A stretch of DNA of 40,073 nucleotides from Desulfobacterales bacterium (GTDB lineage: Bacteria; Desulfobacterota; Desulfobacteria; Desulfobacterales; UBA11574). The stretch covers positions 1 to 40,073 of the forward strand of contig JAHECI010000005.1 in NCBI GenBank assembly GCA_024641825.1, read 5' to 3'. The notes beneath the pieces were generated by a model. That model saw nothing but the letters and a program-made list of their open reading frames with translations. It made no database searches and was not told the origin of the DNA. Shown here one piece after another: positions 34,104-40,073 of this stretch (within the stretch, counting starts at the first letter, position 1; each line of letters starts with the position of its first letter). The position numbers and the translations under genes are program-made.

Positions 34104-34562
34104 ATGAACGCGTCTCCTGTCATCAAATTCCTCCGTTTAAGACCTGACTCGGATGCAGATATGCCCCTGCCCTGCTACATGACGCCCAGGGCCGCCGGGA
34201 TGGACATATGTGCTGCAATAGAATCCGATTTCATACTCGAAAAAAGGGCGGTTGCTTTGATACCCACCGGTTTCGCCGTTGCCATTCCAGAAGGGTTTGA
34301 AATCCAGATCCGTCCCCGGAGCGGACTGGCGATAAATCACGGAATATCGATCATTAATTCCCCCGGAACCATAGATGCCGACTATCGCGGAGAGATAAAG
34401 ATTGGGGTGATAAATCTTGGAAACAAAGCCTATGTGATTCACCGGGGGGACCGCATCGCCCAGATGGTGGTTAAAAGGGTTTATCAGGCACACTTAGAGG
34501 TTGTGGAACAACTCGATGAAACCGACAGAAATACCGGCGGGTTCGGGCATACCGGGCGTTAA
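34104..34562 (+). CDS. dut: dUTP diphosphatase
   Basis: PRAAGMDICAA, RPRSGLAINHGISIINSPGTIDADYRGEIKIGVINLG, RIAQMVV, NTGGFGHTGR. Confidence 0.97.
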   Translation: MNASPVIKFLRLRPDSDADMPLPCYMTPRAAGMDICAAIESDFILEKRAVALIPTGFAVAIPEGFEIQIRPRSGLAINHGISIINSPGTIDADYRGEIKIGVINLGNKAYVIHRGDRIAQMVVKRVYQAHLEVVEQLDETDRNTGGFGHTGR

Positions 34563-34563
34563 C

Positions 34564-35382
34564 ATGAAAGGATCGCCATGCTCGGAATCCTCTCTTGCAG
34601 CGTCTGACTTCAACCTTGCCGTGTGCATACTGGCCAGCGGAAGCAAGGGGAACGCCATTTTTGTGTCCAGCGGTTCCACCTCCATACTGATCGATGCCGG
34701 CCTTTCAGGAATCGAAATCGAACGCCGGTTAAAGTCCAGAGGACTTTCCCCCAAGGATCTCGATGCCATTCTCGTATCCCATGAACATACGGACCATATC
34801 CAGGGTGTCGGCGTTCTTTCCCGCCGTTTCAACCTGCCGGTTTATATGAATTCAAAAACAGAGGGGATTGCCTTTCCACAGATCGGAAAGGTCCGTAACG
34901 TCAAAAACTTCGCGTGTGGTTCGACCTTTCGAATCGGCGATCTGGCAATACATCCCTTTTCCATATCCCACGATGCAGAAGATCCGGCGGGGTTTACCGT
35001 CAATCGGAACGGAGCCACCATCGGCATCGCCACCGACCTCGGCATCGCCACCGCTATGGTCAAAGAACATCTTAAAGGGTGCGGCCTATTGATCCTTGAA
35101 GCCAACCATGACGAAGAGATGCTCATCAACGGCCCCTATCCGTGGTCGGTCAAACAGCGGGTAAAAAGCAGAACCGGCCACCTGTCCAACGCGGCATCGA
35201 AAACCCTCCTCAGCGAGATCCAACACGACCGCTTGAAGCATGTCATTCTGGCCCACCTCAGCGAAACCAACAATACACCCCAGAAAGCCTTAAATGAAGT
35301 CGGTCAGGCCCTGACCCGCAGTAAAGCGCGCCTGGATGTTGCCGTCCAGCATGAATGCGGAGCGCTCCTAAGACTTAAATAA
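34564..35382 (+). CDS. MBL-fold metallohydrolase (YycJ/WalJ-like)
   Basis: LASGSKGNAIFVSSGSTSILIDAGLSGIEIERRL ... VSHEHTDHIQGV ... ILEANHDEEML. Start taken at ATG 34564. Confidence 0.9.
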   Translation: MKGSPCSESSLAASDFNLAVCILASGSKGNAIFVSSGSTSILIDAGLSGIEIERRLKSRGLSPKDLDAILVSHEHTDHIQGVGVLSRRFNLPVYMNSKTEGIAFPQIGKVRNVKNFACGSTFRIGDLAIHPFSISHDAEDPAGFTVNRNGATIGIATDLGIATAMVKEHLKGCGLLILEANHDEEMLINGPYPWSVKQRVKSRTGHLSNAASKTLLSEIQHDRLKHVILAHLSETNNTPQKALNEVGQALTRSKARLDVAVQHECGALLRLK

Positions 35383-35670
35383 TTGAGGGGTCAGGGAGTT
35401 TTTATTCTAACTCCTTGAGTACCAGCGGAATGGATGATCTTTTTTTAAATCGGATGCTGTTTGAGTGGCTTAGGGATCGTTAGAAAGAACAGGCGCATGT
35501 AGAAATCTATCTATAAAGAAATATTAAAGTTATGCAATTAACCTATTGATATTTCAAGGATAATTTCCTGTTCTTTCTCTAGGATCCCTTGCCGCGAGTT
35601 CATGCGGTTTAAAAAAAGATTATTCATCGAGCGACTTTATTTAAAAAACACCCCGACCCTTCAAATAATT
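35377..35670. repeat. MITE-like palindromic element 2, interrupted by a second element
   Basis: Left half AAATAATTGAGGGGTCAGGGAGTTTTTATTCTAACTCCTTGAGTACCAGCGGAATGGATGATC and right half GGTTTAAAAAAAGATTATTCATCGAGCGACTTTATTTAAAAAACACCCCGACCCTTC match element 1 at 12681-12825. Confidence 0.88.
35458..35605. mobile_element. Small non-coding element (about 148 bp) nested inside element 2
   Basis: Absent from element 1. Flanked by ATGC on both sides (35454-35457, 35602-35605). Imperfect terminal inverted repeats AGGGATCGTTAGAAAGAACAGG / CCTGTTCTTTCTCTAGGATCCCT. Confidence 0.75.
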
Positions 35671-35706: not shown

Positions 35707-36021
35707 TTATGACCTGGACAGTTTGATGGACACGTCGGCAGGAACTGCCAACTTGGCTTCCACTTCGACGGCTTTGATGATACCCACCGGGACAGGACAC
35801 GCCGCATGGGGGCAATGTTGCATGCTCAACTGGATCGTTTGAGGTATTGACTGGCGGAATGAGATTTCCTCAAACGGATTGACCTGCTTAAGATTTTGTG
35901 CCAACTTTTGAATGGACTCACAATCACTATTGATGACCAGGTTGCAGGCCTTACCGTTCATTTTCGCCTCAACCACGGTTGTGAAACCACAAATTCCCGA
36001 ATGTATTTCAGCTTTAGACAA
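35707..36021 (-). CDS. Small conserved protein resembling the DUF6951-type family (tentative)
   Basis: MSKAEIHSGICGFTTVVEAKMNGKACNLVINSDCESIQKLAQNL ... CPHAACPVPVGIIKAVEVEAKLAVP. Family assignment from memory only. Confidence 0.55.
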   Translation of the reverse strand: MSKAEIHSGICGFTTVVEAKMNGKACNLVINSDCESIQKLAQNLKQVNPFEEISFRQSIPQTIQLSMQHCPHAACPVPVGIIKAVEVEAKLAVPADVSIKLSRS

Positions 36022-36206: not shown

Positions 36207-36278
36207 TCCTAACGATATCATCACCAGTGGGCATGGAGCGCCAGCGGAATGACCATCTGGTGGATGAAGTTATTAAGG
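36207..36278 (-). other. attC-like site 0 (degenerate, about 72 bp)
   Basis: Minus strand: R''-like CCTTAAT, CATCCACCAG ... CTGGTGATG arms with one extra C on the left, R'-like GTTAGGA. Confidence 0.5.
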
Positions 36279-36327
36279 CCAAGTTTTTCTCTCACAACCT
36301 CTCACGATCTACAAGCTCAAAGATGGC

Positions 36328-37461
36328 TTATTGTAAAATTTTAATTGTATCGGTTATATGCTTCAATATTTGTTTTTCTTTTTGAAAATGCTTTCCTTCA
36401 TCGGTGAGATTTAAGAGCAGAACTTTATACGGCTCGCCAGGTTTTGATAGTGAAACTGCGTAAATAGGTCCCTCTTGTGATTTTTCGATTTCTTTATCGC
36501 TTTCCTTTTCTTCTTGACCGTCCTCGTAAAGCGGCCAGGATTCTCTAACGACTGTCAGATAGATTTCAAGCGCCTTAAGATTATTAAGCGTCGTGAAGAT
36601 GTTCCTTTTGATAACATCGGTTGCGTACTGGGAACCGTTGGGACCGTCGGCAGAGAACATTATTTTCGCCATTCGTATTACGAAATCTTCAAAAGTCATT
36701 TTTTGCGGATTGAACTCTTGGTTTGGATATTGGGACATATCTTCGAAGTTGATCTCAATAAGCCAGCCAGTGCCGTTTCTTTTAAGTAAAAAGCCGCCCT
36801 TATTCATTTCATAATCGTTAGGATAAGCGAATTCGAAACAGTTCATAAAATCCCTGTAAGTTTTAAAGTCTGAAGGTACTTTTCCTTGCTCTTGTCTGAA
36901 CTCTACTTTCGTTCCGGTTGTGGGATCAAGCATAAGTATTTGATTTTCAACTGTTTCAGCCACAAGATAACCGGCCTCGTTAAATCCTTTCAAATTTCCC
37001 CATCGTAAGCCTAATTGCGTTTTTTCCAACGTTGAAAGATCGCTGATAATTTCACTTAACCCAAGATCTCCTATAGGTTTCCCATTTTTGAAGAAAGAAA
37101 AAATGATCTCTTCCTTGGTGTAGTTTGAGGGAAGTGCACCTTCTGCATAACTAGCGCCTATTATATGTTGTCCATCATTTGCCACCCAAACCTCCTCGAA
37201 ACATGCTTCTGTCGACCACATCGGATTTTTTTCTCTCCTTCCTACGTTTCCATGCCAGTTTACTTTGAAAACGAAAATGTTTTTGTCATCTGGGCAGACG
37301 ATTGCCGTGAATTTGTGATTTTTAGAGTGGAAGGTTTTCAATGGAAGTTTGCTTACGGGCACTTTAAAAGCGGGTTCAACAAGTGTTGGTTGGGCAAAGG
37401 CTAAAAGTGTTTGACCGATTATAAGAAAGCTTAATCCAATATTTCTGAGTTTTAGCTTCAT
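36328..37461 (-). CDS. Hypothetical secreted protein (377 aa), candidate integron-cassette ORF
   Basis: N-terminal signal-like MKLKLRNIGLSFLIIGQTLLAFAQP; lies between attC-like sites 1 and 0 on the same strand. Confidence 0.75.
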   Translation of the reverse strand: MKLKLRNIGLSFLIIGQTLLAFAQPTLVEPAFKVPVSKLPLKTFHSKNHKFTAIVCPDDKNIFVFKVNWHGNVGRREKNPMWSTEACFEEVWVANDGQHIIGASYAEGALPSNYTKEEIIFSFFKNGKPIGDLGLSEIISDLSTLEKTQLGLRWGNLKGFNEAGYLVAETVENQILMLDPTTGTKVEFRQEQGKVPSDFKTYRDFMNCFEFAYPNDYEMNKGGFLLKRNGTGWLIEINFEDMSQYPNQEFNPQKMTFEDFVIRMAKIMFSADGPNGSQYATDVIKRNIFTTLNNLKALEIYLTVVRESWPLYEDGQEEKESDKEIEKSQEGPIYAVSLSKPGEPYKVLLLNLTDEGKHFQKEKQILKHITDTIKILQ

Positions 37462-37493
37462 ACTCTTAGCTTCCTCTATTTTTTCTCAAGTAT

Positions 37494-37557
37494 CCTTAAC
37501 ACCGCGGTTCACAGGCCGCGAGGTACGAGCGGTCCTTTGTGAAACCGAATGTTATGC
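37494..37557 (-). other. attC-like site 1 (64 bp)
   Basis: Minus strand: GCATAAC-ATTCG-GTTTCACAAAGGACCGC-TCGTACCTC-GCGGCCTGTGAAC-CGCGGT-GTTAAGG. Spacers 5 and 6 nt; left arm has extra bases. Confidence 0.8.
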
Positions 37558-37576
37558 GAGTTTCTGTGATCTCTGA

Positions 37577-38026
37577 TTAAGACGAGTTTCGGCAAGCAAT
37601 AATATATCGATAGCCATACTCAATTACAGGTTCCCCTTTCTGATTTGTAACTTTGCATTTAATCCCTGCGAATCCTAAATCCGGTTTGCTTTTAGATCGT
37701 CTGAGATCGGTCCACCAAGCTTCGATAGAAAGGACGTCTTTTGGTCTTACTGGATTAAACATTTTGGCCTCATACATTCCAACCCCACTTAAAATTGCCA
37801 CGTCACCCTGCGCTTCTACAACATTACGAGTACAGGCGGAAATGGTGTGAAGCGATGAAGCGACAAGACCTCCGAAAATTGATTCCTTTGCTGCGATCTC
37901 ATCAGTATGAAATGGCTGTGGATCAAATCTTTTGGCGAATTCAATGATGTCCTTTTGGGTAAAAGCAAGCTTTTGGCAATGGAGATGCTCACCATCAGTA
38001 ATATCCTCAAAATATCTTTTTCCCAT
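37577..38026 (-). CDS. MaoC-like (R)-specific hydratase / hotdog-fold protein, candidate cassette ORF
   Basis: KDIIEFAKRFDPQPFHTDEIAAKESIFGGLVASSLHTIS hydratase motif; flanked by attC-like sites 1 and 2. Confidence 0.88.
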   Translation of the reverse strand: MGKRYFEDITDGEHLHCQKLAFTQKDIIEFAKRFDPQPFHTDEIAAKESIFGGLVASSLHTISACTRNVVEAQGDVAILSGVGMYEAKMFNPVRPKDVLSIEAWWTDLRRSKSKPDLGFAGIKCKVTNQKGEPVIEYGYRYIIACRNSS

Positions 38027-38050
38027 ACTTGCCTGCTCTTTACTCTTGGC

Positions 38051-38113
38051 GCATAACGTTGCTTTTCAGCGGCCGCGGCTTTTTTGCGATCCGCTGCAAA
38101 AGCCTTGTTGGGT
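38051..38113 (-). other. attC-like site 2 (63 bp)
   Basis: Minus strand: ACCCAAC-AAG-GCTTTTGCAGCGG-ATCGCAAAAAAGCCGCGG-CCGCTGAAAAGC-AAC-GTTATGC. Arms pair with one extrahelical base. Confidence 0.85.
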
Positions 38114-38120
38114 GTTTTTA

Positions 38121-39026
38121 TTAATTCACACCTTCAAATCTTTCCCATTTGAAATTAGAGCTTTGAGAATCTCCGGAACGATAAATATTCATTAACGCTG
38201 CCAATGAATTATCATTGCAATCGTCATCACAATCTTTACCAATCTTTCTAAACAAAAATGTAACATCAGGATATGATGGAAACCGAATCGGAAAATTTTT
38301 AGGAGGGCCAATAGAGTTAGGCGAGAATCCCTCCGGCATTGCAGTCCATTCACTCTTTGAAGTATTGATTAGTATCCACTTGGCATCAATTTTAGCTATT
38401 ACAAATTGGTGGCCATTTATAGTCATTTCGCTATCATTTTTTTCAAGAGCTTTATTATAGTCATCCGCCTTACTTGAAATAACGTATCGAAGGTCTTCAG
38501 GTTTATCCATCAAACCGAGTGCTTTCACAACGGCGATAAATGAACGGGCATAATGGGAACAGCCAAAAGCAGCTTTGTATTTAATAATCTCATCAGCAGA
38601 TGGTGCGAAGAAGACATCTGCTGGAGTTTTTTTCATATATTTCTCATGCCAATCCTTTAAATTCCGTTTTTGTTCAGCTGACATTTTAAAGGAAACAAGA
38701 AAACCAAGCTTAACTTTTTCTAATAAATCATAGTAGATATATCTACTTGGCTTTATAGAATTTTTGTTGACGCCTGTGTTTTCGTCGATCAGTATTTTGG
38801 ATACCTTGATAAGTACTGATAATTTATCTTTTTCTGGGTAGGAATCAAGAACAGGTTTTACAACATTAGATACATAATCATTTACAACTGGGGTGACTTC
38901 TATAAGATTTTCTTTCTTATCATTGTGTTTCAACGATTGAATCGACGTAGCAGAACACGATAAAATGGCAACAAATAGTATGGTTAAAAGCACTGTAATA
39001 TTAATTGATTTCAGTATATGTTTCAT
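38121..39026 (-). CDS. Lipoprotein with transglutaminase-like Cys-His arrangement, candidate cassette ORF
   Basis: Signal/lipobox MKHILKSINITVLLTILFVAILSC; FGCSHYARSFIAVVKALG ... NGHQFVIAKIDAKWILINTS. Start taken at 39026 rather than the listed 39152, because the upstream part overlaps attC-like site 3. Confidence 0.7.
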   Translation of the reverse strand: MKHILKSINITVLLTILFVAILSCSATSIQSLKHNDKKENLIEVTPVVNDYVSNVVKPVLDSYPEKDKLSVLIKVSKILIDENTGVNKNSIKPSRYIYYDLLEKVKLGFLVSFKMSAEQKRNLKDWHEKYMKKTPADVFFAPSADEIIKYKAAFGCSHYARSFIAVVKALGLMDKPEDLRYVISSKADDYNKALEKNDSEMTINGHQFVIAKIDAKWILINTSKSEWTAMPEGFSPNSIGPPKNFPIRFPSYPDVTFLFRKIGKDCDDDCNDNSLAALMNIYRSGDSQSSNFKWERFEGVN

Positions 39027-39079
39027 ACTCAATTCCTGATTATGAAATGATCGATCTGTTTTATTTGATTGATCGCAAC

Positions 39080-39147
39080 ACCCAACGGCCGGGCTAACAG
39101 GTTCGCGGCGGGTTTTCCGCGCATCCTTGTTCAGCACGATGTTGGGG
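39080..39147 (-). other. attC-like site 3 (68 bp)
   Basis: Minus strand: CCCCAAC-ATCGT-GCTGAACAAGGATGCGCGG-AAAACC-CGCCGCGAACCTGTTAGC-CCGGCC-GTTGGGT. Spacers 5 and 6 nt, extrahelical G in the left arm. Confidence 0.88.
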
Positions 39148-39226: not shown

Positions 39227-39865
39227 TTACTTGACCAGCACCAGTCCCGCCAGATTGCCCACCGGGATATCCTCTGGATTGGCGTCGCTACCATAAGGAT
39301 AGATCTCCCACCCCGACGAGGCGATCAAACGGTACACATCCATACCCACCGCCTCCATGGAGGGCCGGGCTTTGAGGGGGAAACGGCATTTTTCGCCTTT
39401 TAGCACTTGGCAGCCCAGGTTGGGGTCGCAAAGAGACGAGAAGCAACTGCCCGCACTGAAACCTACAGCCAAGTAATGTCCGTCGTAGAAAGCCGCGGAC
39501 TCCAACTTGCTTACAATTTCCAAAATGCTCTTGAAGGCGGCCCTACGCTCCTTGTCGTTTCGGTCACGTTTCAGTACCTCGGAGTGCACCCTGCGAAGAA
39601 AAAGCAGACCATGGCTGTAGCTTTTCAGCAATTGTCGTATTTCAGATGGCTTGGGCGCATGGGGCGGGCATTGGGCGCAGGTGTTGTATCCGAAACACTG
39701 GGGAACCCTACACTTGAAAGCGACCGCGTCCTCCACCGGTATTTTAGAGGCATCCACCACCCGTGCTTCGTCGGCCCCGAGTTTTAAGGCATATTGACAA
39801 TACTTGTCGAGATCTTTGAGCAATATTACCCGATCGCGGTCTTCGGCTATTTTAGCTATTGGCAT
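39227..39865 (-). CDS. DUF2284-type cysteine-rich metal-binding protein
   Basis: CRVPQCFGYNTCAQCPPHAPKPSEIRQLLKSYSHGLLFLR ... CFSSLCDPNLGCQVLKGEKCRFPLKARPSMEAVGMDVYRL. Start at MPIAKIAEDRDRV, preceded by GGAGGAGA. Confidence 0.8.
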   Translation of the reverse strand: MPIAKIAEDRDRVILLKDLDKYCQYALKLGADEARVVDASKIPVEDAVAFKCRVPQCFGYNTCAQCPPHAPKPSEIRQLLKSYSHGLLFLRRVHSEVLKRDRNDKERRAAFKSILEIVSKLESAAFYDGHYLAVGFSAGSCFSSLCDPNLGCQVLKGEKCRFPLKARPSMEAVGMDVYRLIASSGWEIYPYGSDANPEDIPVGNLAGLVLVK

Positions 39866-40073
39866 AAATGTCTCCTCCAACATTATATATTATACGGCTG
39901 CATCTTTTTTACAGGATTTATTAATATGAGACAATTATACAAAAATAGTGGAAAAACGAAAGAAAAATCAAAATATATAATGATATTAATTTTCTATGCT
40001 TATTTTTGACGGCGGAAAACTTATACAAAATTGTAATAAATACATCTTTTTGCTCTTATTATGGGAATTATGA

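Follow-up and report, generated by a model that had tools for sequence, protein, structure and literature searches.

What is the cluster of attC-like hairpins near the right end of this window, the 40,073-nt stretch analysed here? The window is the entire contig C101 of a 3.5-Mb MAG, which is 87% complete and 6% contaminated. A sequence-only reading had described the cluster as CALIN-like, with no integrase visible, in the chromosome of a sulfate reducer; in IntegronFinder, the term CALIN denotes attC clusters that lack an integrase (PMC9024848). In our view, with a probability of roughly 0.93, the cluster is a cassette array that belongs, together with its attI, to a sedentary chromosomal integron with a dead integrase of its own. 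The label “sulfate reducer” is not supported, as no dsrA above the curated cut-off was found in this MAG (best 61.5 bits).

The attC sites and their cassettes

A purpose-built attC model was needed, because a scan at the Rfam gathering thresholds gave only a tRNA. The covariance model, hereafter called R1, was trained on 11 attC sites (10 from related genomes and that of aadA1), none of which came from the window. Up to E=10, R1 gave exactly four matches in the 40-kb window, all on the minus strand and all exactly where the sequence-only reading had placed its sites, including the one it had called degenerate: 39080-39147 (40.2 bits), 38051-38113 (38.3 bits), 37494-37557 (28.9 bits), and 36207-36278 (52.6 bits). 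The score of the 36207 site is inflated, since R1 holds a 96%-identical relative of it; R1 also holds relatives of the 38051 site at about 82-84% identity, and therefore only the 39080 and 37494 matches are fully independent. In addition, a box-and-stem scanner, which looks for AAC...GTT boxes, an L''/L' stem in which seven paired bases enclose one extrahelical base, and spacers of 4-7 nt, gave its three highest scores in the window to 39080-39147 (score 23), 38051-38113 (23), and 37494-37557 (22), again all on the minus strand. At a score of at least 22, dinucleotide-shuffled windows gave 0.07 matches per whole window, and the aadA1 attC used as the positive control scored 25. The scanner reproduced the 5/6 spacers at 37494 and 39080, from which the site orientation had been read. 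With DNA energies, the bottom strand (the plus strand of the window) folds better than the top strand at all four sites, if only slightly at some, with z values of -2.1 to -3.4 and bottom-over-top margins of 0.1 to 3.2 kcal/mol. The sites thus show the R''/L''/L'/R' boxes, the extrahelical base, and the bottom-strand hairpin that belong to an integron.

Could unrelated hairpins, such as terminators or copies of a dispersed repeat, resemble attC by chance? Hairpins are frequent between genes, and the window does contain a genuine dispersed repeat close to the array (35375-35670), but this explanation is refuted in practice by the restriction of the R1 matches to four in the window, by the shuffle control, and by the central sequences of the four hairpins, which differ from one another and so do not form one repeat with identical interiors. 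Furthermore, as described below, homology with another genome is bounded by the sites, and attI and intI adjoin them. The nearby repeat itself is MITE-like: it is about 296 bp long and is bounded by imperfect terminal inverted repeats of 30 nt (80%). The same genome contains at least six more copies at 92-94% identity, and the relatives contain many at 68-87%. The bare RYYYAAC...GTTRRRY pattern was dropped as an attC detector, since a backwards control gave more matches than the pattern itself.

How are the cassettes arranged? The earlier description of single ORFs on the minus strand separated by attC sites holds, but there are four cassettes rather than three, the first having been missed, and the array extends from 36207 to about 39881. 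Cassette 1 (39227..39865, attC 39080-39147) encodes a DUF2284 predicted metal-binding protein (Pfam PF10050, E=1.3e-35), the ORF of which likely starts at the second Met (MPIAKIAE). This gene is assigned to a cassette because it lies between the attI crossover and the attC at 39080-39147. Cassette 2 (38121..39026, attC 38051-38113) encodes a 301-aa protein with weak similarity to the transglutaminase core, below the Pfam cut-off, and with an apparent lipobox signal peptide in its translation. Cassette 3 (37577..38026, attC 37494-37557) encodes a 149-aa MaoC-like dehydratase (PF01575, E=4.4e-18), and cassette 4 (36328..37461, attC 36207-36278) a 377-aa protein with no Pfam match above the cut-off. 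The ORFs occupy 80-88% of the cassette length in all four. To the left of the array lies a minus-strand DUF6951 ORF (35707..36021; PF22263, E=2.9e-31), which has a homologue in one other of the 24 genomes of the family. R1 found no attC beyond this ORF in the window, and it is possibly a fifth cassette that has no recognisable attC. Elsewhere, a DUF2284 relative in a Desulfobulbaceae MAG (L042) is followed by a scanner match of 22.0, without an R1 match.

The site of cassette 4 differs from the others in its R'' box, where AAC has become AAT. The whole cassette (36208-37507) is 98% identical to a cassette in the genome G297 (contig C97), which belongs to a different genus and in which the attC is intact (CCTTAAC...GTTAGGC; L083:6155-6226). 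The 36207-36278 site is therefore a genuine attC, the R'' box of which has mutated. The homology with G297 ends within a few bases of both attC boundaries, which fits the exchange of a single cassette. Cassette 4 is also present at 94-95% identity in G204, where, on contig C125, it adjoins a full-length intI in the classical divergent orientation. Cassettes are thus exchanged as units here: cassette 4 is shared across genera, and other cassettes occupy the same locus in the congener G121.

attI and the integrase remnant beyond the contig end

Where does the array begin? A minus-strand R' box, GTTGGAG, lies at 39875-39881, with the crossover G^TT at 39881/39880. The adjoining stretch, 39879-40073, is 94-97% identical beside four other arrays, 98.5% identical over the 136 bp available beside a fifth, and 86% identical beside a sixth. 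The query for this comparison was cut at 39879, and an earlier uncut search was used to check the boundary; in the latter, the edge of the homology falls at 39879 or 39876 for most loci and at 39857 for one. Position 39879 is the end of the GTT in the R' box, and this coincidence of the homology edge with the GTT makes the DUF2284 gene and the attC at 39080-39147 the first cassette. As judged from these alignments, a conserved region that ends at the GTT crossover beside several different arrays is the predicted attI, the left part of which (39879..40073, minus strand) adjoins cassette 1 and the remainder of which extends to about base 163 of contig C390.

Contig C101 ends inside this attI region. 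Its last 121 bp match the first 121 bp of C390 exactly, and the MAG has no other place with that sequence. On the basis of this k-mer-length overlap and of synteny, C101 probably continues into C390. A near-perfect 27-bp palindrome, GGAATTATGATGCTGCATCATAATTCC, is located between attI and the stop codon of intI (window 40064-40073 and onward into L008 112-138) and is conserved in most of the related platforms; the contigs break inside it both here and, at the same point, in G121 (C106).

An integron integrase gene, of which only the C-terminal 93 codons remain, lies on the minus strand of C390, 42 bp past the overlap (TIGR02249, E=1e-36, model positions 225-312 of 315). As compared to the gene in G121, this intI has lost about 765 bp (deletion junction at C390 424-434), and the remnant reads MIDTHVV in place of MIYTHVV, which replaces the catalytic Tyr by Asp—a single-base difference in one assembly. 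Therefore, a contig that ends in attI is followed by a truncated and mutated intI, and the locus is better described as an integron that has a dead integrase than as a cluster that has none. It is a degraded integron, because its IntI is reduced to a remnant lacking the catalytic Tyr. The earlier statement that no integrase lies in the window remains correct, while “CALIN-like” falls short in that attI is present and the intI remnant directly adjoins it. Under the IntegronFinder rules, the locus would probably still be called a CALIN: the four attC sites exceed the required two, no complete integrase is nearby, and the 93-aa remnant scores 127 bits, below the NCBIfam curated cut-off of 265. 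The profile search found no complete integron integrase in the MAG. Its other TIGR02249 matches (C125 and C374), at 54-87 bits per piece and far below the cut-off, resemble tyrosine recombinases of the Xer kind and were set aside. An intact integrase may exist elsewhere in the genome, given the 87% completeness and 6% contamination of the MAG.

Is the cluster instead a true CALIN, formed by off-target insertion at a secondary site or detached from its platform by rearrangement, and having neither attI nor intI of its own? The lack of a complete integrase in both the window and the MAG would agree with such an origin, as would the isolated attC-like sites elsewhere in the genome, but the conserved attI at 39879-40073, the intI remnant on the overlapping contig, and the same arrangement on one contig in G121 render it very improbable. 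The isolated sites are restricted to three contigs outside the window, and all differ from those in the window. An attC on C232 (4365-4425) follows a DUF1254/DUF1214 gene and precedes a gene for an RsgA-like GTPase. A weak attC-like site on C285 (3150-3219; E=0.015 genome-wide) lies beside a PIN/RHH toxin-antitoxin pair, between glnA-like and P-II-like genes, and another on C278 (1878-1941; E=0.06 genome-wide) lies beside DUF5661 and KamA-like genes. The toxin-antitoxin pair (L122 3150-3866) is possibly an isolated cassette. RsgA-like GTPase genes adjoin attC in two genomes (L121 4365-5613 on C232, and L085 1326-2501), a housekeeping-type GTPase family occurring as a cassette.

The same locus in related genomes

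The integron lies between two chromosomal genes, one with a metallo-beta-lactamase fold on the left (34501..35382, plus strand; PF12706) and an amidohydrolase gene on C390 on the right. In the congener G121, the flanking genes (92%), the intI region, and attI (97%) all recur on a single contig, C29, where they are accompanied by five other attC sites and by cassettes different from those in the window. In two genomes of other genera, G171 (L096) and G294 (L095), the metallo-beta-lactamase-fold gene is followed by the amidohydrolase gene after 143 and 276 bp, respectively, with nothing of an integron between them. This empty-site synteny independently supports the join between C101 and C390. 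Relative to the empty site, the insertion in the present genome is about 5.1 kb, including the MITE-like repeat and the DUF6951 gene. In G293, the left flank runs into other genes, and no attC was found within the 2 kb examined.

Does some part of the population still carry a live integron here? The contig break inside attI could reflect strain variation or a second attI copy, with an intact intI kept at this locus in some cells. The same attI region is indeed present twice per genome, on different contigs and beside different cassettes, in G121 (C29, and C106 with C15), G216 (C12 and C1), and G297 (C97 and C491). However, C101 has a single continuation in the bin, and the intI sequences beside this attI in the relatives are damaged as well: that of G121 is 5'-truncated (209-aa frame), both copies in G216 are frameshifted or contain stops, and throughout these three genomes the intI sequence is damaged where it is present beside attI. 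We thus regard a live integron as unlikely, though less so than a true CALIN.

The history of the degraded integron may accordingly be pictured as follows. Cassette insertion by attI x attC recombination is established for integrons. Between the two flanking genes, the platform reads on the minus strand as intI remnant, attI, and cassettes 1-4, each cassette consisting of one ORF followed by its attC. A working integrase would insert circular cassettes at attI by recombining the double-stranded attI with the folded bottom strand of attC, and insertion at this point would lead the arrays at one locus to differ between congeners. The deletion in intI has left only a stump bearing the Tyr-to-Asp change. 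With a dead integrase, the array should now be fixed, unless another integrase acts in trans.

Integrase orientation and comparison with known systems

At this locus (the C390 remnant, minus strand), and likewise at L079, L084, L085, and L124, intI points toward attI in the same direction as the cassettes; intI and cassettes share one strand and attI lies downstream of intI, as in a reverse integron. The related IntI at L124 (G165) is intact, in an ORF of 409 aa. A tree of 44 IntI sequences places the C390 remnant as sister to that of G121, in a group with those of other reverse platforms (UFBoot/SH-aLRT 98/85). The IntI genes that surround this group in the tree mostly have frames of 395-440 aa, and some of them are in the classical orientation. 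L123, beside which no attC was seen, was counted as reverse because its integrase is identical to that of L085, and L126, the orientation of which is unknown, also falls in the group. L085 (8927-9718, G216) and L123 (849-1691, G217) come from genomes of different families, and their integrases are identical over 267 aa, with 98% DNA identity across 1.1 kb, which reflects either recent transfer or cross-contamination between the MAGs.

Integrons are ordinary in this group, as attC matches at E<=0.001 occur in 21 of the 24 genomes of the family and an integron integrase match at E<=1e-30 in 181 of the 293 genomes of the order. We tentatively suggest, while considering it rather doubtful, that one integron lineage of the order reversed its integrase relative to attI independently of Treponema, and that the platform was then duplicated within genomes, moved between families, and repeatedly lost its integrase while the arrays persisted.

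At this one place, relatives can be compared that differ in the state of the locus: the integrase deleted, the integrase less damaged (in a congener), the site empty, or the array different. The locus and its relatives show the reverse layout outside the order of Treponema, in several genomes of another order, and the comparison provides a clean example of how attC clusters without an integrase originate. The kind of system is already known, and the understanding of integrons is unchanged by it.

The “reverse” layout was described in Treponema denticola and its relatives (PMC3607928, PMC4909258), which form a different host group; the present integrase, compared with the Treponema system by description only, belongs to a group with 395-440-aa frames. 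These frames are in the same range as those of the deltaproteobacterial IntI clade 15, which carries an N-terminal fusion of about 120 aa (PMC2426708) and was likewise compared by its description only. A CALIN, as defined in IntegronFinder (PMC9024848), shares with this locus the two or more attC sites and the lack of a complete integrase nearby, while attI and an intI remnant are present here. Loss of intI is one listed route to a CALIN (PMC8618304), and the attI and intI remnant make that route visible at this locus. Finally, nearly a third of the intI genes surveyed by Nemergut et al. in 2008 were pseudogenes (PMC2426708). The sedentary chromosomal integrons with such genes resemble the present one in having an attI, a chromosomal array, and a defective integrase; here, a congener provides a comparison for the lesion at the same locus, and there is no difference in kind.
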